From Saccoglossus kowalevskii (taxonomy: Eukaryota; Hemichordata; Enteropneusta; Harrimaniidae), in assembly GCF_000003605.2 (NCBI RefSeq), contig NW_003137827.1:425754-455731 (forward strand): DNA of 29,978 nt, given 5' to 3'. Position numbers and translations under genes: made by a program. Under the pieces are notes generated by a model. It ran no database searches. It was not told the origin of the DNA and saw only the letters and a program-made list of their open reading frames with translations. This document shows positions 2,075-21,969 of this stretch, piece after piece. Each line of letters begins with the position of its first letter. Within the stretch, counting starts at the first letter, position 1.

Positions 2075-3335
2075 AAAAAAAATCAATACTAACTATTTAC
2101 AAGGAAGTGGGATATTAATTTGGATTTGAATCCATGTCTGCGAGTTTCACCTTTTACTTCAGTGGGGCGAGAGTTCCAATGTTTTGCTGCTGGACGCGAG
2201 ATTCATTTTGGGAATATAATAATTGTTGTTTGTTGCCAGGCGGATTGGGTAACTGTGGGGCATGGCTTCAAGGTAACAATTTATGTTATGTTCAAAATGG
2301 TTATGTTTTAAGTCAAATACAGAAAGAGAAGTTTGAAGCTTGCAAAGTTTATACACATCTGAAAGCCGAAGTTGTTGAAATAGGAGAGCTGTATGGGCAT
2401 GAAAATGAGAAAAAAAGTAAATAAACGAGCAACTTTCTTTTGGAGAAATAGAACTGGTTTGAATAATGATGGATATGTGTTACCCCATATCTCCAGACAA
2501 TAGGTAATTTGTGGTAAAATTGATGATTTATAAAGAAGGAGAACTAATTTCCTGGAGACGAAGTGTTGAATTTTTGATAGTAGTCCAACTTTGTTGGCAA
2601 CTGACATTGTTATTTTTCCCATATGGGTTTTCCAGTTTAGATGCTGATCAAATATTATGCCTAAATAATTATAGGAACAAGCGCCCTGGACAGGTAACTT
2701 CCCAGTGCTTAAAGTGTCCACTGTGGTAAATGACCGTTGTGGTGTACTAATTAACATATGTGTTTTGTGTACATTGATAGTGAGCTGGTTTGCACTACAC
2801 CATTCACAGACTCTCTGAAAATAATCATTAATATGTAAGAAGTTAATAGTGTTATTTTGAATGGACCGAAAGAGAGTAGTGTCATCAGCAAATAAACGTA
2901 CGTCAAAATCATTGGTACAATTGACAATATCATTATAATAGATTAAGAATAAAATAAGGCAAAGAGTCTATCCTTGTGGAACTGCGCATTTCATATTATT
3001 GTACGAGGAGAGGGAATTATTAATTTGGACACATTGCTGGCGATCTCAAAGGTAATTTTTGAACCGTTGTAGCGAGAGACCCCTAATACCACAATTAGAA
3101 AGTTTATGGAGAAGGATTTTGTGATTAATAGTGTCAAAAGCTTTTTTAAGATCAATGAAAATTCCGAAAGTAATGTAACCCTTGTCCATGTTATCAGCAA
3201 TGCTTGTTACCAGGTCAGCTATGGCGAGTTTGGTGCTATGTTTTCTCCGAAAATTGAACTGTTTGTCTGAAAGTATGTCTTATTTATCAAGGAAGTTAAT
3301 GAATTGTTTATTAACAACAGATTCATACACCTTAC
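2075..3335 (-). pseudogene. LINE reverse transcriptase core and C-terminus
   Basis: Reading from 3335 down, the RT finger/palm motifs appear in order: FRRKHSTKLAIADL, IFIDLKKAFDTINHKILL, GLSLQRFKNYL, CAVPQG, then LFADDTTLF with the catalytic Asp pair encoded at 2881-2886. The ORF at 2757-2308 carries the thumb: NYLGIIFDQHLNWKTH and YCLEIWGNTYPSLFKP. A further frame (2356-2159) has the usual Jockey/CR1 tail. At least three frame changes and an in-frame stop after PQG are present. Confidence 0.85.
3331..3335. repeat. Target-site duplication CTTAC, left of solo LTR
   Basis: CTTAC directly abuts the TGTCGC terminus and is repeated at 3832-3836 after the GACA terminus. Confidence 0.88.
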
Positions 3336-3831
3336 TGTCGCATACGACTTGTTTACCCACTTCCGTGTGACTGAGAATGTTCTAGAACCGTACTGTGTCT
3401 GGGTGGAATTCTTAGAAGTTGGTTGAATAGGTAATAGGACATTATAGAAGGCAATAGAAGGTAATGGAACATTCTAGAAATTTATAGTAAGTTCCAGACT
3501 CATTATGTATGCTGATGTAATGGTCTATTTATAGACAGTGTGGGTATATTTAGGGGAGTTGTTCAGCACTGCCATCAGATCGGAGATCTCGTTGAATTGT
3601 ATTGGAGTTTAAGTATCTAGTTATTGGAGTAGTGGAGTTTTACCGCGTTATTGTACTTGATGTTTGCAGAGTATAATAATACCAGTACCAGCTGAAACCT
3701 CATCTGTTGGCTCCGTGTTCGTATTTTATCATCGCCGCCAGGGAAGTCTTTTTGTTACTGTTGCCATTTTGGTATTTGAACCATCACACCTGTACTATAC
3801 CAATTACGGTAATATTACGTTGCGTGTGACA
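3336..3831. mobile_element. Solo LTR (496 bp) of an LTR retrotransposon
   Basis: The segment begins TGTCGCATACGAC and ends GTGTGACA, so the termini are TGTC...GACA. It is flanked by identical 5-bp CTTAC copies at 3331-3335 and 3832-3836. It sits inside the RT of the minus-strand LINE. With the segment and one CTTAC removed, the LINE frame reads through the join (LPVLSKVYESVVNKQF). Five-bp duplications and TG..CA ends fit Ty3/gypsy-like or similar integrases. There is no second LTR and no internal coding region, so this is a solo LTR left by LTR-LTR recombination. A TATA-like tatttatag lies near 3529. The element family is unknown. Confidence 0.9.
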
Positions 3832-4137
3832 CTTACTAAGAACTGGAAGAATTGAAATCGAACGATAATTACTGGCCTTACTTACCATTTTCGAAAATAG
3901 GAGTTATTTTCAGTTGGTCAGGGAAAATACATTGGCTCAGTGAACAATTAGTAATGTGGGCAAAGGGGCGAGCAATAATACTGGATTTTATCCTGACCAG
4001 CAGATTTATTAGGGTTCAATTTAATGATTTCAGTTAAACTGTCAGCCTCGCAGACAGGGCGATAAAAGAAAGAATTAATTTGATTATTGTTAAGATAGTT
4101 TCTAAAATCACTAGCATTAGTTATATCATAGATTTTA
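3832..4137 (-). pseudogene. LINE reverse transcriptase, N-terminal part
   Basis: On the minus strand from 4137: KIYDITNASDFRNYL, then CEADSLTEIIKLNPNKSAGQD, typical of the region just before and at RT block 0-1 in CR1/Jockey LINEs. IARPFAHITNCSLSQCIFPD follows after a frameshift. The ITPIFENG motif is followed by another shift to NYRSISILPVLSK, which runs into the solo-LTR target site. The right edge coincides exactly with the TIR of the inserted DNA transposon. Confidence 0.82.
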
Positions 4138-4158
4138 GAATGAGAGGGACAGGCAACT
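4138..4158 (+). repeat. Left terminal inverted repeat of the 4.9-kb transposon
   Basis: GAATGAGAGGGACAGGCAAC plus T. It matches the reverse complement of 9054-9074 with one G/A difference. TA precedes it at 4136-4137. Confidence 0.88.
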
Positions 4159-4352
4159 ACAGTGTTTCTTTTGTTTTAACCTGGGTTATAATCCTCCAAA
4201 TAATCTCACAATCCCATTAACGAATAAACAACCATCTGTTTATTTGCACTGACGGCAGCACTCGCGCAAAACGCGTGAGCTTCACTGCGTGACCAGCTGA
4301 GCGACGGTCATGAATATGCTAATTGTATGTTAATGAGTTTTCACTGAGTATC

Positions 4353-4363
4353 AAAATGGCGGC
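4353..4363 (+). promoter_or_regulatory. YY1-type initiator over the start codon (aaaATGGCGGC)
   Basis: The string aaaATGGCGGC matches the AAnATGGCGGC class bound by YY1 in animals. This class often combines transcription initiation and translation start in TATA-less promoters. It lies 215 bp inside the left TIR and begins the zinc-finger gene. Upstream, 4255-4310 is the most CpG-rich stretch nearby (cactcgcgcaaaacgcgtg), as expected of a transposon promoter. Confidence 0.55.
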
Positions 4364-6304
4364 GATGTTAACATCGATGTTAGATCCTTCCGAGTTTTTT
4401 TGATGTTTTCTCTGAATTTGACGACTGTTTAGATGATAGTTGGAGTACGGAAGAAGGTTTCAATGCAGATTTAAGTGACGATGATATTCTAGTGAAAAAG
4501 CCCAATAAACAAATGCCGTGACCTCAGTTACCTCGAACAGTACATAGTCGCGGGTTCTGAAAGGAAGAGTTTTCAATGTGACATTTGTAGCAAGCAGTTT
4601 ACAACGAAACATGGATGTAAAAAACACATACTGAATTGTCATATGATTACAGGTAGGAAATAAATAATTATTTATTTTAAGTAAAAATCCGTTTTTTCTT
4701 TCATCAGACTAGTTTGCTTTTCTCCAAACCCTTTTTTGTAAGCGACGCTGCCCGGTATTCAATGAATCTTCAGAAATTAGCCAGGATTCCCCATAGCCCT
4801 AAAAGTATTGACATGGCGTGTGTATAGCATTTGGTATTATTATAAAATATGACAGTTCAGTCTCCCTTGTTCCTATGTTTGTTTACCTGTTCGTATGTGC
4901 AGTATTTTTGAAACTAATAGTTCATGTTTTCACTCAAACATACTGGCAACCACTGACCAAAACGAAGTGTCAAATAATGAAAGTGGGAAGAAACAAAGCT
5001 TGACCAAATTAATTAAAAGAAAGTATTTTTTCTATGTGTATCCAAAGCTCAGTTGAAAAATGGAATTAGTTTACTCATTGAAAATTGTGTATCTCAACTA
5101 TGGACTGTCATTTTGTAGACATCAATGATATAATATATAACTATATTATAATTCACCACTTCTGAATTTATAGCAACAATTTATAAATTTGTGTGGTTCT
5201 TTTTGCCTATAGAGATACCACCTATACCAGTTTACAAAATGAAAGATGCCTTCAAAGAAGGAACTACTTTGTTCACTGCTGCTATGAGATTAGCATCCCG
5301 CGATGTTACCAATAGCAAAATTCTACCTGGTATGGCTGCACTCAGGAATGCCTTAAAACTTATGATTGAAAGAGCTGAGACAATGACAGACGAGATTACA
5401 AGTATGATCAGGGTACTGTGGCCTGTCATTGTAGCCGGTGACTTACTACGATTATTTTCCAGTCGCAGAGAGAACATTTTCAGAAGATTCCATCAGAAAA
5501 GACTGTCACAAGATTTGAGTAATTCTATGCGTCTACTGTGTTTGAAAGCTGGTGCAAATACTACAAGTGTTATAACTATCTGTCTGACGTGCTTTTAGTT
5601 TGAGGAGCTTCTAATGAGAAGGGATAAGGCTGAGACGCATGATAGCTGTAGTACGATCAAGATAGGTAAAAATCGAAGAAAATATCCTTTGGCATGCAAG
5701 TGGCTACATACCAATGGCTCTCTCCAAACAATTAAAGAAACTGTTGTTACAGCATTATCTAAAATGAGTTTCAAACCAGCAGTCTGACACCTTTTTGATG
5801 TACACAACGGAGTGGGTGGAGAAAGAAAAACGTGGTGGATTGTACCAAATCAACGACAAAACTTATTTACTTTTCAGAAGATGTGAGCATTTTATCAGAC
5901 TCAATTCTAACACACTAATTCATCACAATGAATCAATACAGCAGGCTGTAATTAATGCTGTACTCAATGACAGAGTTGCTTTGTCATATTGGTCGGACTT
6001 GGCATCAGATTTGGAGGAAGATTCATCACTTGAACTCTTAATAATGTGTCTCAAATTGTGGGTGAACACAAGTGGACATTCCACTGCCAGAAAATTGATT
6101 GAAGAGTTTAAGATTACTGAGGCTAAATCCAGACAGTCGAAAAGGAATTCGTCAAGAATTGAAAGAGCTTCAAAATTGATGGCCTTTCTTTTAAACCCAA
6201 GCTTGTCAGTTTGTAAATATAGCAATAAACATTATCCATCTTATATTTGTTGTCTTTATATACCTGCCACTGTATTTGCTCTATTAGTATTGCACTTCTC
6301 ATAG
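4356..6304 (+). pseudogene. C2H2 zinc-finger protein of the transposon (two exons, damaged)
   Basis: Exon 1 (4356-4652) starts ATGGCGGCG and encodes an acidic segment (FFDVFSEFDDCLDDSW), then one C2H2 finger at 4577-4642 with C-x2-C-x12-H-x4-H spacing. A one-base excess in the T-run near 4400 and a second shift near 4515 break it. The donor ACAG|GTAGGA at 4653 joins the acceptor ...cctatag at 5211-5212 in phase (codon G+AG). Exon 2 (from 5213) encodes an alpha-helical segment (RNALKLMIERAETMTDEITSMI), meets TAG at 5596-5598, continues in frame to about 5787, then shifts. The last part (5795-6230) has WVEKEKRGGLYQIND, YWSDLASDLEED and LLIMCLKLWVN. I associate this block with uncharacterised zinc-finger proteins repeated in aquatic invertebrate genomes. 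Its role beside the transposase is not known. Confidence 0.7.
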
Positions 6305-6364
6305 ATGTACAGATACTGGTTTTATTTTGAATGAGTGTATGATGCAAAAGACAATACTCTGTAA

Positions 6365-6370
6365 AATAAA
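6365..6370 (+). terminator. Polyadenylation signal AATAAA of the zinc-finger gene
   Basis: AATAAA lies about 60 bp after the last stop of the rightward gene, within a partial palindrome (gtaaaataa...ttattttac, 6361-6388). It marks the convergence point of the two transposon genes. The leftward gene ends about 400 bp further right. Confidence 0.5.
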
Positions 6371-6767
6371 GTTATTTTATTATTTTACATACAAAGAGCG
6401 AGTACATTTCTAATTTTCTACAATTATTGATTGAAGTATGAAAAAACAAGACTAGGCCAAAAAAATACCTGTGGCAAGAGATATCCCAAATGCTTGAATT
6501 CTACATGATGACCCTTTGAAAATGTAATCCAAAAAGCATTGTATTCTAGTCACAGGCACTATACATATTTATTTTGAGGAAAATTACAAAACGTATAGAA
6601 AAGGCATACTTTGTTTTATTATTGGTAAAACAATAATGAACTTTTGATTGGAATTAGAAACAATTGATGTAAATGATAATATTTTGGATAATTAGAAAAT
6701 GCATCTCCAAAAAGTACCAGGGTTCGTTGACCTTTTAGAGGTCATGGATCAGGCCATTAACATTTAT
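6371..6767. other. Spacer between the two convergent transposon genes
   Basis: A/T-rich DNA with no supported coding region. It holds the 3' ends of both genes. The only long open stretches are low-complexity shadows. Confidence 0.6.
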
Positions 6768-6913
6768 TTACGATGCCGACGAATAAGTGGTGTATATTTG
6801 TCTGTGCATTCCAAAATACGATTCCAAAGGATCCTGATTGAATTTCTCTGAAAGAATACATTGTACACCAGGCTGTTGCAGTAAGTATCTGGTAACTTCA
6901 ACAAAAGAGTATA
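6768..6913 (-). pseudogene. P-element-like transposase, 3' exon
   Basis: On the minus strand, a good acceptor (tttatactacag) precedes an exon from 6913 that reads SFVEVTRYLLQQPGV, then ILSEKFNQDPLESYFGMHRQ. It stops at TAA (6770-6768), and AATAAA overlaps that stop. The SEKFNQDPLE.YFG motif is the hallmark C-terminal block of P-element/THAP9 transposases that I know. It belongs to the RNase-H-like core after the insertion domain. In the family, protein continues past FG..R for tens of residues. Here it ends 9 codons after the HRQ, so the tail is truncated or mutated. Confidence 0.8.
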
Positions 6914-7385
6914 CTGTAGTATAAACGAGAAACAAAATGGTTAACACAAATCTTAACTAAAATAATGGTCCACCGGTGTTCTTCCCTAGGCATTTAGCAG
7001 TTTAATTTCGTAGAAATTCTAATGTGTGGGGAAAATAACGTACATTACTGATCATATATTCACAGTAGAAGTGCATGCTTTCTTTCAGCAATATAGCATC
7101 GATTAGCAATATCTTTATTACATGTCATTTGAATGACACGCATGAATTTTACTCTATATAAATTAAAGTTGAACATATGTGGGTGCCACCATCTTGGACA
7201 AAAATACAAATGTTTCTATTCTCAACAGTGTATCAGGCTTGCATGAAAGTGAAGGCATGTAATAATAACTTACCTAAAATACCTAAAATAAAAGAACCAT
7301 GTTAGAAATACAAATCCCTTGGTGTACATTTCATTATCTAAAATATAGCTACCCAATTGGAACAGAATATTAATTAATGACTTGC
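6914..7385 (-). other. Apparent intron of the P-like transposase
   Basis: This lies between the GC donor at 7385-7384 and the acceptor at 6915-6914. No coding block is recognised. The VLS..VA.AL block normally following the internal exon is missing, so an exon may have been lost here. Confidence 0.45.
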
Positions 7386-7532
7386 CTGTACTGCAAATTT
7401 CACTTTCATTCGTGAAAATGATGTTAAGTGCACATGTTCAAACTTCAACTTGTTGCATAGAAAGAGACCACCTCTACTCAGATCAGCATGGTATAAATCC
7501 ACAATAGTTTTCCAACTTATGTTTTCTCCATT
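7386..7532 (-). pseudogene. P-element-like transposase, internal exon with a GC donor
   Basis: The acceptor (catctctttttag) at 7533-7534 opens an exon reading NGENISWKTIVDLYHADL, then SRGGLFLCNKLKFEHVHL and TSFSRMKVKFAVQ. In P/THAP9-type transposases the stretch W..I..LY...........KL...H..LT..S.M.V..A.QV follows the conserved FD.PH..K..R block. The exon ends CAG|GCAAGT, which fits the rare GC-AG donor consensus. A 261-bp open frame (7743-7483) overlaps it in another phase and is mostly a shadow. The FD.PH exon expected upstream was not found in 7533-9050, so the copy may be internally deleted. Confidence 0.78.
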
Positions 7533-8089
7533 CTAAAAAGAGATGCATAACAGTATCATCAGAATAATGCGTTGCGTTAACGTGTAATTCCGAGTCCGGG
7601 AAGCATCCGGTGAGCACACGTCTCAGTCGTATTATGATAGGCCTAAAGGCGTTGTGTGCGTTTGCGATGCCATTGTCCCGCATACAAAGTTCATAGAGCT
7701 TGTAAATTAACCTAAAATACTGTGCCATTGTCTTCAAAAACACCTATTAGCATCTACATTTTACAATGGAACATGTGAAGTCCCGTCTGAAGTACAGCGA
7801 GACAGTCAATACTGAGACAAGTAGAATGCACTGTGACCTGCTAATTTAACTGCCTAAAACTTACAATGTCACCCAGGGCAATTTTTCTCCAAAAAATCAC
7901 TAACAAAACTGGTACGTGAAATACACTATTTTTCCTAATTTTATTGGTAACGAAATCATATTCTAAACAAAGTAAAAACGATCACAACTGCTGAGCAACA
8001 AATCACGGTTGCGCAATCCAGTCATGCTGTTTTACAATTGTTGATTATTACTCAGTAGTGATTATAATAATGTTAAAAAAAAAAAAACT

Positions 8090-8155
8090 TCGTTTAGTCC
8101 TAAGCAAATAATTCCGGTCGCAAATTAACGCTCGATGCTGTCGAGTATCCGCCAT
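8090..8155 (-). CDS. Possible first coding exon of the leftward transposon gene
   Basis: The minus strand has aacATGGCGG at 8158-8149, the same start context as the rightward gene. It is followed by 22 sense codons (MADTRQHRALICDRNYLLRT...) up to a long T-run. The only donor-like GT is at the edge of the T-run and is poor. No THAP zinc-finger cysteines are visible. Evidence is the initiator context and position only. Confidence 0.3.
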
Positions 8156-9053
8156 GTTCCTAGACTTGCTTGTAGTCTGTTGTGATTACGATGCAAAAAA
8201 GTACATATATAATGCCACTGAGCGTTCTAATAATTAAATATTTATACTGATTTCACAAAATCATGCAGTTTGATTATTCTTGTACTGTGAGTAATATTGC
8301 CTTGGTGGTCGAGACAAAGCATGCCAATAACAAAATACATGAAACAATGAATGAAGTTAACACATCACTCCAGAAAAACAATATGGTTTTCACACATTTT
8401 TAAGCAGTCTGGAAATTTAACAACAACTGCATTTAAAAAAGGACTCCCATACAAAAAAAATATTTTTTGAAAGTTTCAAGCAGGACACATAAAGAAAGAA
8501 AATTAAAACAAACGGGGTCAGCCATTTGCGATGTAAGCTGACTTTCACACGTTTCCAAACAGTTTAGAAAATTCAGAATTTCGACTTTTGTAAAGCAAGT
8601 AATCAAATTAAAATACCCTGATTACTTCGAAAATAGTATGATTTAAGTGACAAATACGATAATGCAAACAAAAAGAGTTTTTATTTTCCCGAAAACGGGC
8701 CAAAATGCGGCAGTCGCAGGATAAGTGTAGCCAACATTGGTCACCATCGAGAACACGCACATAAAATCAGCCGAGTAGTTAATTTTATACTGGTGAAAAA
8801 ACGAATTGTAACTCTACGTATATCAAGTGTCACTTACCTAATAACCAGTACCAAAAAAAAAAAAATGGATCTTGTATTGAAATCTAGTAAAAATTCGATG
8901 TAATAAGGACAATCACTGAAAGACGTGTTGCAAACTGCGCGGCCGATCGATTGCGAGTGACGTCATACGGTACCCTTAGCTTGATCATTTGTTTATAACT
9001 GTAGGAACCCACGTTGCACGCCGGGTGTCGTGAAATCCTTTGTTTTATAATCC
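8156..9053. other. 5' flank of the leftward transposon gene
   Basis: A/T-rich with A-runs at 8077-8089 and 8853-8865. Near the right end a CpG-containing patch (8937-9030) includes the palindrome TGACGTCA at 8958-8965, a consensus CRE/ATF site. This is a plausible promoter region for the leftward transposase. No protein is recognised. Confidence 0.35.
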
Positions 9054-9074
9054 AGTTGCCTGTCCTTCTCATTC
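9054..9074 (-). repeat. Right terminal inverted repeat of the 4.9-kb transposon
   Basis: Read on the minus strand this is GAATGAGAAGGACAGGCAAC plus T, paired with 4138-4158. TA follows it at 9075-9076. A 62-codon minus-strand ORF that starts inside this repeat is a by-product and is not annotated. Confidence 0.88.
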
Positions 9075-9462
9075 TAAGGTCTATGGTTATATTAGCTGCG
9101 AGGTTAAGGCCAACATTGGTTAATTCTTAATATCAGCACTACTGATCAGGGGTGTACCATCTGCTGAATTTAATTTAATTTAATTTAATTGGGATGGAAA
9201 TACCTTCAATTTTGTTTAGGATTTCGTTAATAATTTTCCACCTTTTATTGGTATTGCCATAAGCAAGTGAAAATTTACTTGAGTAATGCATTTTTTTAGC
9301 TGACTGTACGATTTATAATTATGTTTTTTGTTAATAGATTTAATTAGCCCTTTGGTCAACCAAGGCTTACGAGCTGAACTCCTCTTCTGGAGTTTCTTAA
9401 ACTTGAGATGTTCTGATGTAACGTTCAAAAAGATGTCATAAAATTGTGTGTAACAATTCTAA
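9075..9462 (-). pseudogene. LINE endonuclease-RT linker fragment
   Basis: Minus-strand reading CYTQFYDIFLNVTSEHLKFK leads into ARKPWLTKGLIKSINKKHN, the standard linker of Jockey/CR1 ORF2. After a frameshift near 9290 comes AYGNTNKRWKIINEILNK, then an expanded TTTAA repeat (9168-9190) and NVGLNLAANITID running to the TA target site. It joins in frame with 4137-3832 across the inserted transposon. Confidence 0.8.
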
Positions 9463-10781
9463 CATGCTTCCTGGCATAAAATCCGAGGGAAAACTTTGAC
9501 AGGAAAAAAGACCTGATTATTCTGGCAAATGGCCTGTCTAATATAGGTAATCCATGTGGACCTCTCTCAGATGTATTCTTTTATGATGATATATTCAATT
9601 CTCTAATTTTGTTGAATATTTTTGTCATTTTTGGTAAAAAGTGAAATTTTTGACTTCTTGCTAAAAATAGAAAGTCCAGTTGCTTTGATACTATATATAG
9701 TGTTCATTTTCTTAAGAAATCTTCAGTTCTTTAATTGAAATGTGCATTGCTTACAGTGGAGCTATCTCAGCTGAAAGACTGCATGTTTAAAAAAATATGA
9801 TTATTATTACAAATACAAGCTGCGAATACCTAACTCCTAATTATTTTAGTATGTATTTTTTTGGTGTATTCAATTTAGCTCCTAAATCCTAAATCCACCA
9901 GTATATAAAAAAAATGATCGACCAGCTCTTATGGACAGAGCACTTAATAAGATCGAAAGTGATGAGAGTCTGAAAATTGCTACTGCTGTCATTACAAAAG
10001 TAGTCTGGTTTTACATTTTCTGGGCGATTTGACCTCTCAGTTATGTAGTACTAATTCCGCAGGAGGGTGGCCAGAATTTTCTTGTTCAATTTAGTTGTTA
10101 TTGTCAGAAGACATATAGATACAATTAACCAACATATGCAGTTGAAAAGGGAACAATGACACAACTTAGGCTTGCGCTTCCACCTCGCTAACACTGCTTT
10201 GCAGGATTTTTTTCATAGGCTACGTCGACGGTACACAAGACATTCATCACTGTTCTTGATGACACGAGGGTAAATGCAAGTGATGAAAACCCTAACATTT
10301 CATGCCTGAAAAAAAGGAACAGTGGGGCATTTGTTCGTGTTTGATCAAAGTTATTTATTTTTCAAACAGATAGAACATGTCTGTCAACAACTATAAAGCA
10401 GCTTCATAGTAGAACCAATTTTCAGGAACCACTTGTCACAGAAAACAGTTGCCATCACCAAGTATGGAATCAGCAATTTTGGGTCCCAATAAAAAATGTT
10501 GTCCCTGAAAATGAATAGCAGATTTTCGTGGAAATACAGATTAACTTTTTCGATTTCCGATTTGCCAAGTCGTATTAATCTGTTGAAACTAATCTACAGA
10601 AGACTGCAACTCCCATGCACAAAAAACATCAAGTGCAATCCCCAGGATTGAAATATTCCTCTCTTTATGTCCGTCTTTACCAAGTTTTGTCACACGTGTT
10701 CAGATGACAATACAAATAAAAAAAAGCTTACAAAGAACCCCCGTGTGCTGAGAGTATTGGAGACGAGACAATGGAACAGAC
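9463..10781. other. No recognised gene; one weak open segment at 9901-10032
   Basis: A/T-rich DNA. On the plus strand, 9901-10032 is open for 43 codons (KKNDRPALMDRALNKIESDE and onward) with a protein-like, charged composition. It has no start or clean splice sites and I do not recognise it. The rest shows no coding, RNA or repeat structure I can support. Confidence 0.4.
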
Positions 10782-13367: not shown

Positions 13368-13532
13368 ATTCGTCTCTAAATTTTTAAAGTTTTAATTATT
13401 ATTATCATATCCCCCCCTACCGCAAAATAAAAAAAATAGTACAGATATGGAAAAATACGAAAAACATTTGATCAAAATATTGACAGGGTAAATTAGACAA
13501 GAGTGACTCTGCCTTGAAAATTATTTTTTTAC

Positions 13533-13860
13533 CTGAATAAACATTTTCTTTGATAAACCAGAGTCAATTATTAATACATCGATTTCTTTGAGACGTCTCT
13601 TCGTTTCCGTCATGTCATCCAGATTCTCTATTCTTTGAATTAGTTCATCTGATTGAAAGCGCCCATTCATCAGCCCAAGGAATCGATGGATCGTAGTTCC
13701 ATTACGTAAAAGTGTAGCTGCCATGCCTGTTAACGCAGTCATTGCAACCTTTATGGATCGCATTAATTTTCGTTAATTCCTGTAATCAATTTAGTTTGGC
13801 CTGTGCCTGCTTGGCCTGAAATAAAAAGGTTGTGGCCTTCATTTACTGCTGTCACGATGT
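13533..13860 (-). pseudogene. PIF1-like helicase N-terminal fragment with altered Walker motifs
   Basis: The minus strand reads VNEGHNLFISGQAGTGQTKL, the Walker A region of PIF1-like helicases, where the family has GQAGTGKT: the lysine is Gln here. After a one-base shift near 13765 it continues MTALTGMAATLLRNGTTIHR, the motif Ia block, and RRLKEIDVLIIDS where DE (Walker B) is expected. The final segment ends ATTCAG|GTAAAA at 13533, a plausible donor. PIF1-like helicases occur as host genes, in Helitrons and beside other transposons. With K to Q, a frameshift and loss of the DE pair, this one should not hydrolyse ATP. Confidence 0.75.
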
Positions 13861-17950: not shown

Positions 17951-18031
17951 AGTAAAAGAGCCTCTGATGCTGCTAAAAGATGGTGAAATTCTCATTGTGG
18001 TACACAGAGAGTAAAAGGCCCTCTGATGCTG
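17951..18031. repeat. 59-bp tandem repeat truncated by the assembly gap
   Basis: agtaaaagagcctctgatgc at 17951 recurs as agtaaaaggccctctgatgc at 18010, a 59-bp period, and the second copy runs straight into Ns. The gap is therefore probably an unassembled minisatellite. Confidence 0.65.
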
Positions 18032-18410
18032 NNNNNNNNNNNNNNNNNNNNNNNNNNNNNNNNNNNNNNNNNNNNNNNNNNNNNNNNNNNNNNNNNNNNN
18101 NNNNNNNNNNNNNNNNNNNNNNNNNNNNNNNNNNNNNNNNNNNNNNNNNNNNNNNNNNNNNNNNNNNNNNNNNNNNNNNNNNNNNNNNNNNNNNNNNNNN
18201 NNNNNNNNNNNNNNNNNNNNNNNNNNNNNNNNNNNNNNNNNNNNNNNNNNNNNNNNNNNNNNNNNNNNNNNNNNNNNNNNNNNNNNNNNNNNNNNNNNNN
18301 NNNNNNNNNNNNNNNNNNNNNNNNNNNNNNNNNNNNNNNNNNNNNNNNNNNNNNNNNNNNNNNNNNNNNNNNNNNNNNNNNNNNNNNNNNNNNNNNNNNN
18401 NNNNNNNNNN
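18032..18410. other. Assembly gap, 379 Ns
   Basis: Unresolved bases. Open frames that cross it have no meaning. Confidence 1.
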
Positions 18411-20952: not shown

Positions 20953-21969
20953 GTGAAACCTTCAAGCAGTTTCAACGAATCAGCTGTAGGCTACGTACAT
21001 CGCATTTCCACAATGAAAAAGGGGGAAAAAAGCAATTCTTCTCCTTTATTTAGATTGCAAAATGCTGAAGATGATAATGTGGGAACACAGGCAATCTGCT
21101 TCAGCCCCAAAAAGACTACTACTAAAAGAGTACCAAACAAATGCTGTTCCGATTACGGTAATATTACGATTAAGTAATATAAAAAAAGAAATAGAAAGTT
21201 CAGGTAACACAAAACTTGTGATACAAGATGCATCGAACGTAAAAGGCACAAAATCGACTTTCCCACCAAGTGGTGCATTCAAATGTCCTGAAATTAACCT
21301 GGAACCCATTAATGAATACCCAGTTGGAGATAGTGTGTATCAACCTAGATGCTGCATTATCAAAAATGTATGAAATAACCCAAATGGCTAGTTATAATTG
21401 CACACAGAAACGCAAAGTTTATGCAGTTTTTGGCCAACAAAAGTGCCCCATCATGTTATATAATGACCTCTGTCATTCTACAGAATTGTACAAGTCGTAC
21501 CTTATTAGTCCATCAAAATTAAGAATAACAGAAGACGATGACAGGTACTTGACAACACCAGACACCGAGATAGAATGTAAAGAGGTGGATTATTATCAAG
21601 GGGCCTGTGAGGAACTGATAGAAGACATTCAATAATACAATCAAGGGGAGAGTGATCTCAATAAAAGAAATTCTACTATTTAATGAATGTATTTCTTGTG
21701 GTGCACACATCACAACAGACAACCACGATATCATCACTTGTACAAAGTGTGGTAATTCAACCTTAAAAGAACTGTGCAAAGAGAATGGAAAGATAATTTT
21801 CAATATGAAATCCAATGATTCTACTCTGAAAGAACTAACTGGTTTCCTGCCAGAATTCAACCAATTTCCTAACTATGTTGAAATTTTCAAAAACATTAAA
21901 TATGCAGCAGGAACTTTACGCAAAGCAGGTCCACCTGTCCAATGCAGAAAAAAAAAAACACTGCAGTAA
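20953..21969 (+). pseudogene. RPA-like OB-fold/zinc-ribbon protein, frameshifted
   Basis: After an acceptor at 20951-20952 the sequence is protein-like in successive frames: SAVGYVHRISTMKKGEKSNS and AICFSPKK (frame 1), LLLKEYQTNAVPITVILRLS (frame 2), DAALSKMYEITQMASYNCTQ, PIMLYNDLCHSTELYKSYLI and ECKEVDYYQGACEELIEDIQ (frame 3), then ILLFNECISCGAHITTDNHD and ITCTKCGN from 21652 (frame 1). The layout of OB-fold strands followed by a C-x2-C...C-x2-C ribbon fits a replication protein A-like family I have seen as multicopy, unannotated genes in invertebrates. Single-stranded DNA binding is inferred. At least three frameshifts make it a pseudogene. Confidence 0.62.

Follow-up and report, generated by a model that had tools for sequence, protein, structure and literature searches.

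Can a transposon of the P superfamily carry a second gene beside that of its transposase? P elements are classic single-gene cut-and-paste transposons, and the question is raised by a locus in the genome of the hemichordate Saccoglossus kowalevskii (RefSeq assembly GCF_000003605.2, contig NW_003137827.1, positions 425,754 to 455,731 of the forward strand; this stretch of 29,978 nucleotides is here called the window). The original prediction, made from the window sequence, described an element with a P-like transposase gene on the minus strand and a convergent C2H2 zinc-finger gene (here called the partner) on the plus strand. Our analysis makes it very probable that the window holds a dead, internally damaged cut-and-paste transposon of the P superfamily, full members of which carry two convergent genes. 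Other places in the host genome are denoted by C or L plus a number, and the features of the element are listed in Table 1.

The whole element spans positions 4127 to 9085 (4,959 bp) and is larger than first delimited. Its terminal inverted repeats of 32 nt are 91% complementary and of the form CATAGA...TCTATG; the predicted 21-bp inverted ends are real, but each arm extends 11 bases further outward than the limits drawn at 4138 and 9074. The TA on both sides (4136-4137 and 9075-9076), which had been read as the target duplication, sits within the inverted repeat and is present in other copies too. A TA duplication was ruled out because the 11 outermost bases at either end recur in other copies, and the true duplication is the 7-bp GTTATAT. 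When the element and one 7-bp copy are deleted, a single minus-strand LINE frame is continuous across the junction. The restored LINE frame thus stands as predicted; the cut proposed at first differs by 27 bases and therefore kept the frame as well. In positions 3101-10100 there is a single 32-bp inverted pair with at most 3 mismatches that adjoins an exact 7-bp repeat, and none of 200 first-order shuffles has one, and a lax version (12 bp, 2 mismatches) gave 1 in the real stretch against a shuffle mean of 0.195.

The genome search with the left end returned 23 rows, representing 21 places besides the window. Target duplications were surveyed in 14 distinct end pairs, with ends at most 5 mismatches from a 21-base consensus and lengths of 5 to 12 bp tried; copies with only one recognised end were excluded. 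Exact duplications were present in 7 of the 14 pairs, each of 7 bp (window, L021, L028, L029, L030, L031 and L037), and no pair had an exact duplication of any other length tried. TTAA or 8-bp duplications, named beforehand as findings that would count against the element, did not occur among them. In one further copy, listed as both L022 and L042, 6 of the 7 positions agree, and no duplication was seen at L032, L033, L034 and L039, the pairing at L033 being probably wrong, with a worn right end near 1135. At L026 (350-601) and L027 (6850-7915), the left end lacks its first 7 bases, yet by eye an exact 7-bp repeat seems to adjoin.

Neither gene was seen at any of the 21 other places that carry the exact ends (C1337 was covered just 1.5 kb inward), an outcome of the kind that the original prediction had named as counting against it. 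The interior from 4354 to 8490, used as one DNA query, matched the genome at itself alone among the 40 of 402 candidates scored. Because the copies of the exact ends lack both genes, support for a two-gene element comes from related families. Several of the gene-less copies (L025, L027-L031 and L034) contain at least two copies of the stretch equivalent to 8504-8706, reminiscent of a Galileo copy with tandem repeats.

Regarding the transposase, the predicted P-like gene on the minus strand was confirmed in two exons, but the rest of it was not found. One exon matches the C-terminal part of the RNase H domain (PF21789, E = 0.016, 15.6 bits, below the cut-off of 24), and the other matches part of the GTP-binding insertion domain, or GBD (PF21788, E = 3.5e-5, 24.6 bits, just under the cut-off of 24.8; two longer typed peptides around it gave 25.4 and 24.3 bits). 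The GBD exon is 71% identical to C662 and 67% identical to C2039, both of which adjoin RNase H N-terminal domains. Joined, the two exons are colinear with the Drosophila P transposase 6p5a (E = 0.0016) and cover the position of its catalytic glutamate, which we take to be residue 531. Among the RNase H catalytic D, D and E motifs, E alone is retained. In the element, tblastn with transposase parts of C1630, C2039 and C4066 did not reveal the RNase H N-terminal domain, i.e., the catalytic first half (sole match, E = 0.89; a query from the last exon of C1630 was out of frame and void). A Pfam scan of the window frames, with stops as X, detected neither the catalytic half nor a THAP domain, and was insensitive, having missed the GBD as well.

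The transposase side of the element is largely taken up by a 581-bp repeat and by the right end common to the short copies. This repeat has sharp edges and occurs at many genomic places, the best dozen copies being 81-91% identical. An 86-aa minus-strand frame (7486-7743) was considered as a transposase exon and rejected, given its overlap with the nested repeat and the lack of any Pfam match. The repeat also brings up an arrangement in which one transposon sits inside another, unrelated one and the two together mimic a two-gene element. We regard this as highly improbable: within the 8-kb locus searched, no inverted ends but the outer ones are flanked by a duplication of 7 or 8 bp, so that the P-like exons have no such pair of their own, a nesting that the original prediction had named as a refutation, and the same gene pair recurs elsewhere in the genome.

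The plus-strand gene with its RGGL...LWV block was found as predicted, with homologues beside other P-type transposases, but the window copy is broken. The finger in its first exon (4571-4642) matches zf-C2H2_4 with an E value of 8.9e-4 (20.2 bits, below the cut-off of 27), and this exon is 70% identical to C2039 over 23 residues. A C2H2 exon was recognised in the window, in C2039 and in C1630 (zf-C2H2_jaz, 23.0 bits against a cut-off of 22.6). An alignment of five partners, three of them assembled from broken frames and one partial, has the common blocks LWPxIxAGD, GYxPxxL and WxxxxxxGGL. In full members, the C2H2 partner has about 450 residues. Pfam gave the C2H2 finger alone, sequence and profile comparisons with the PDB gave nothing credible as to its fold (best E = 0.23), and two structures predicted from single sequences were of low quality (mean pLDDT of 42 and 44).

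Since the partner gene is broken and the catalytic half of the transposase was not found, the window copy is dead; with no gene part at the 21 other places, the short copies are non-autonomous. Differences by codon position were compared between copies. Between the window and C2039 partners, differences at codon positions 1, 2 and 3 were 0.42, 0.30 and 0.61 (235 codons), and three further partner comparisons gave the same order, with position 3 highest and position 2 lowest; for C2039 versus C1630 no stretch was obtained. The transposase pair C1737 versus C2261 was nearly flat (0.12, 0.12 and 0.14). As judged from the codons, the partner pattern is that of a protein under selection, in a test that is biased because the stretches were chosen by protein likeness and in which some stretches may overlap.

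Relatives of both genes were searched for in the host genome, and the numbers of places are lower bounds. The RNase H N-terminal domain (PF21787) matched in 13 rows at 12 places, the C1630 and C4066 transposase queries added 18 places and PF21788 added C346, which together with the window makes 32 transposase places. Rows at C376, C2593, C559 and C3226 were dropped, as they match only query residues 570-610, likely an intron repeat. Partner homologues were found at 10 places with window query 5768-6301 (itself included) and at 10 more with the C1630 partner, i.e., at 20 in total. Nine of these 20 lie less than 5 kb from a P-type match (window, C2039, C1415, C1630, C3768, C4066, C3427 and two at C2074), and all nine pairs are convergent; about 0.01 pairs would be expected by chance (computed with 33 transposase places). 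This pairing upholds the predicted distinct P-like lineage with two convergent genes, but not its insertion at TA, the duplication being of 7 bp.

The relative C1630 has a 610-aa transposase frame that contains PF21787. Its first catalytic D motif and an SDxPHL motif align with 6p5a (E = 0.0048), its GBD scores 33.4 bits, over the PF21788 cut-off of 24.8, and its last exon, with QDPLE, scores 29.3 bits with PF21789, also over the cut-off. Perfect 30-bp inverted repeats (10113-10142 and 18025-18054) enclose the transposase, the C2H2 exon and a 351-aa partner exon. In C1415, both genes likewise lie inside ends, one of which departs from the family end sequence at 7 of its 32 positions and the other at 9 of 32; its flanks, GTTTGCC and GTTTGCA, match at 6 of 7 positions. 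For the C2039 pair, ends were not found in the stretch examined, which does not include the left flank.

Alternatively, the C2H2 gene could be a passenger, i.e., a gene of the host or of another mobile element that some copies picked up and that plays no part in transposition. Such a capture would fit the 11 partner places that have no transposase match nearby (C617, C1554, C4581, C842, C2261, three at C3060, C1873, C2501 and C1342) and a window copy that is a mosaic with a nested repeat. It fits poorly, however, with a convergent pair that recurs at nine places, across transposases 35-42% identical to that of C1630, and with the position of the partner between the inverted ends, which holds for the window and for the two relatives in which both ends were seen. 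We therefore consider a passenger improbable.

Several of these observations weigh against a two-gene P-type transposon. Both transposase exons of the window score under or just under the Pfam cut-offs, and the 21 places with the same ends are without genes. Among the relatives, C1630 has no target duplication, two of the nine pairs (both at C2074) depend on transposase matches that are short (E = 1.9e-7 and 7.6e-4), and 11 of the 20 partner places are unpaired. The codon test carries the bias described above, and the role of the partner is one that we only infer.

By eye, the transposases fall into two groups on the basis of their N termini. Group A comprises C1630, C2039 and C1415, to which the window and C662 are added for their likeness, and starts with MPxxxxxxRPK; no DNA-binding domain was recognised in the one start scanned, that of C2039. 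Group B comprises C4066, C3768, C1737 and C3427, with a start of the form CRLC (CRLY in C3427)...LNIxV...PPxxCxxC...HxxxCxxC. A THAP domain was not detected in the C1630 frame, the N-terminal frame of C4066 or the first frame of C2039, whose first exons may be incomplete. RAG1_imp_bd (PF12560) matched C4066 and C3768 with 18.9 and 19.7 bits, under its cut-off of 23.3, and did not match C1737 and C3427. All four Group B peptides matched zf-AD at 21.6 to 13.3 bits, under the cut-off of 28 (C4066 21.6, C3768 18.3, weak for C1737 and C3427). Since these matches are below the cut-offs and zf-AD is matched too, a relation of this zinc domain to RAG1 is a lead, no more. A whole-genome search with PF12560 gave no match and is uninformative, as it gave none in control genomes either. 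N-terminal frames with a zinc domain weakly like the RAG1 N-terminal region and zf-AD were noted in P-type transposases at L046 and L047.

From the P-type domains and the 7-bp duplications, we infer cut-and-paste movement with a 7-bp stagger, in which the transposase would cut both ends and join them to the target at positions 7 bp apart. In the P superfamily, the cut within the end is staggered by 17 nt and the reaction depends on GTP. The partner most likely acts as a putative end-binding or regulatory cofactor, which would bind the ends or help to assemble or regulate the transposition complex, in a role comparable to that of RAG2 beside RAG1. Because the parts of Group A transposases that could be read yielded no THAP domain, the partner may supply end recognition. 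The gene-less short copies would have been moved in trans.

Two other roles for the partner were weighed. As a repressor, it would limit transposition like the short P-element repressor proteins; a single recognised finger is compatible with this, and a separate convergent gene would permit separate control, but nothing here tells a repressor from an activator, and we hold this role to be unlikely. The partner could also be the C-terminal part of the P transposase, split off and joined to a C2H2 finger; the two genes together would then equal one classical P transposase. The last transposase frame of C1630 stops, if unspliced, 68 residues past the catalytic glutamate, and the Drosophila P transposase continues for about 200 residues past it. 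However, the partner has no Pfam match to any P-element model and no match to 6p5a, the latter comparison being incomplete, as this chain of 569 residues lacks most of the C-terminal part. A split-off origin is accordingly unlikely in our judgement, and a separate cofactor is the role that we retain.

Compared with known systems, Kolobok and Tc1/mariner are alike in cut-and-paste movement with inverted ends but differ in their TTAA and TA targets; the 7-bp duplication sets the element apart from Kolobok, as does the TA internal to the inverted repeat from Tc1/mariner. The P superfamily (Drosophila P, THAP9 and Pdre2) shares the RNase H fold with a GTP-binding insertion, the D and E motifs of the relatives (the second D is unplaced) and ends that begin with CA, such as the Pdre2 end CATACCTGTCAAC (PMC10983969). 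It differs in its 8-bp duplication, in its THAP domain, which was not found in the parts of transposases seen here, and in its single gene, as opposed to the convergent partner at nine places. Galileo is alike in its many gene-less copies and in its duplications, which are of 7 or 8 bp, but a nearly complete copy has one 905-aa THAP transposase frame, and the available part of the source mentions no partner gene (PMC4168063). RAG1L-RAG2L transposons (ProtoRAG and TransibSU) resemble the element in their convergent transposase and partner genes (PMC7204232), and some relatives have an N-terminal zinc domain with a weak resemblance to the RAG1 one. They differ in a 5-bp duplication (PMC8355894), and the core here is P-type, with a partner lacking Pfam matches beyond the C2H2 finger; with a 7-bp duplication and P-type domains, membership in RAG/Transib was rejected. 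The Chapa/RAG1-type N-terminal zinc domain of Chapaev (PMC4411706) is weakly matched by relatives, but the catalytic domain here is P-type. A two-gene P-type element was not described in the literature searched, a search with Repbase and most subscription journals outside its scope. Similar RGGL proteins may occur in other invertebrate annotations. Given the scope of the search and these possible counterparts, novelty is not established.

Table 1. Features of the transposon in the window (positions count from the first nucleotide of the window)
Feature	Position	Strand	Basis
Left target duplication copy, GTTATAT	4120-4126		Exact 7-bp repeat at both ends
Left 32-bp terminal inverted repeat, CATAGATTTTAGAATGAGAGGGACAGGCAACT	4127-4158	+	Pairing; CATAGA start recurs in several other copies
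Left subterminal region	4159-4353	+	blastn to short non-autonomous copies, 81-92% identity for most
Partner exon 1, disrupted by frame changes; its start is acidic and it encodes a single C2H2 finger	4350-4654	+	Limits by eye
Partner exon 2, disrupted by one stop and one frame change; blocks LWPxIxAGD, GYIPMAL, WVxxxxRGGL and LxLWV	5213-6231	+	Homologues C2039, C1415, C1630 and C3427; limits inferred
Transposase exon, RNase H C-terminal part, catalytic glutamate KFNQDPLESYFG	6771-6896	-	PF21789 (TNP-like_RNaseH_C), matched by 6771-6956; 6p5a 508-538
Transposase exon, part of GTP-binding insertion domain	7377-7532	-	PF21788 (TNP-like_GBD); 6p5a 359-407
Unrelated nested interspersed repeat, 581 bp	7592-8172		8 of 11 best non-self matches share both edges
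Right subterminal region	8504-9053	+	blastn to short non-autonomous copies, about 73-92%
Right 32-bp terminal inverted repeat	9054-9085	-	Pairing with left arm
Right target duplication copy, GTTATAT	9086-9092		Exact 7-bp repeat at both ends

Outside the element, the window contains further fragments with matches below the cut-offs: a reverse transcriptase fragment (2308-2967, minus strand, RVT_1, E = 4.7e-5), a PIF1-like helicase match possibly from a Helitron (13524-13772, minus strand, E = 9.3e-5) and zinc-ribbon-like matches (21622-21966, plus strand, best E = 4.5e-5) beside two frames of unknown kind (21017-21632).

The layout of the element resembles that of the jumping gene ancestral to the antibody-shuffling pair RAG1 and RAG2. 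We tentatively raise the possibility, to which we give distinctly less than even chances, that a deep lineage of P-type transposons is two-component, needs the convergent C2H2 partner for end recognition or assembly, arose independently of RAG1-RAG2 and includes transposases with a RAG1/Chapa-type N-terminal zinc domain. According to Kapitonov and Koonin, the RING finger and Chapa domain of the RAG1 N-terminal type are not encoded by any known transposable elements outside the Chapaev and Transib types (PMC4411706). If the possibility raised here is true, the RAG1/Chapa-type domain would extend to another kind of transposase, and P-type elements might have supplied the RAG1 N-terminal region or taken part in its exchange. 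A conserved lineage with a convergent partner would mean that the two-gene solution of RAG transposons arose more than once; it would offer a new kind of transposition cofactor and may bear on the origin of the RAG1 N-terminal zinc region.

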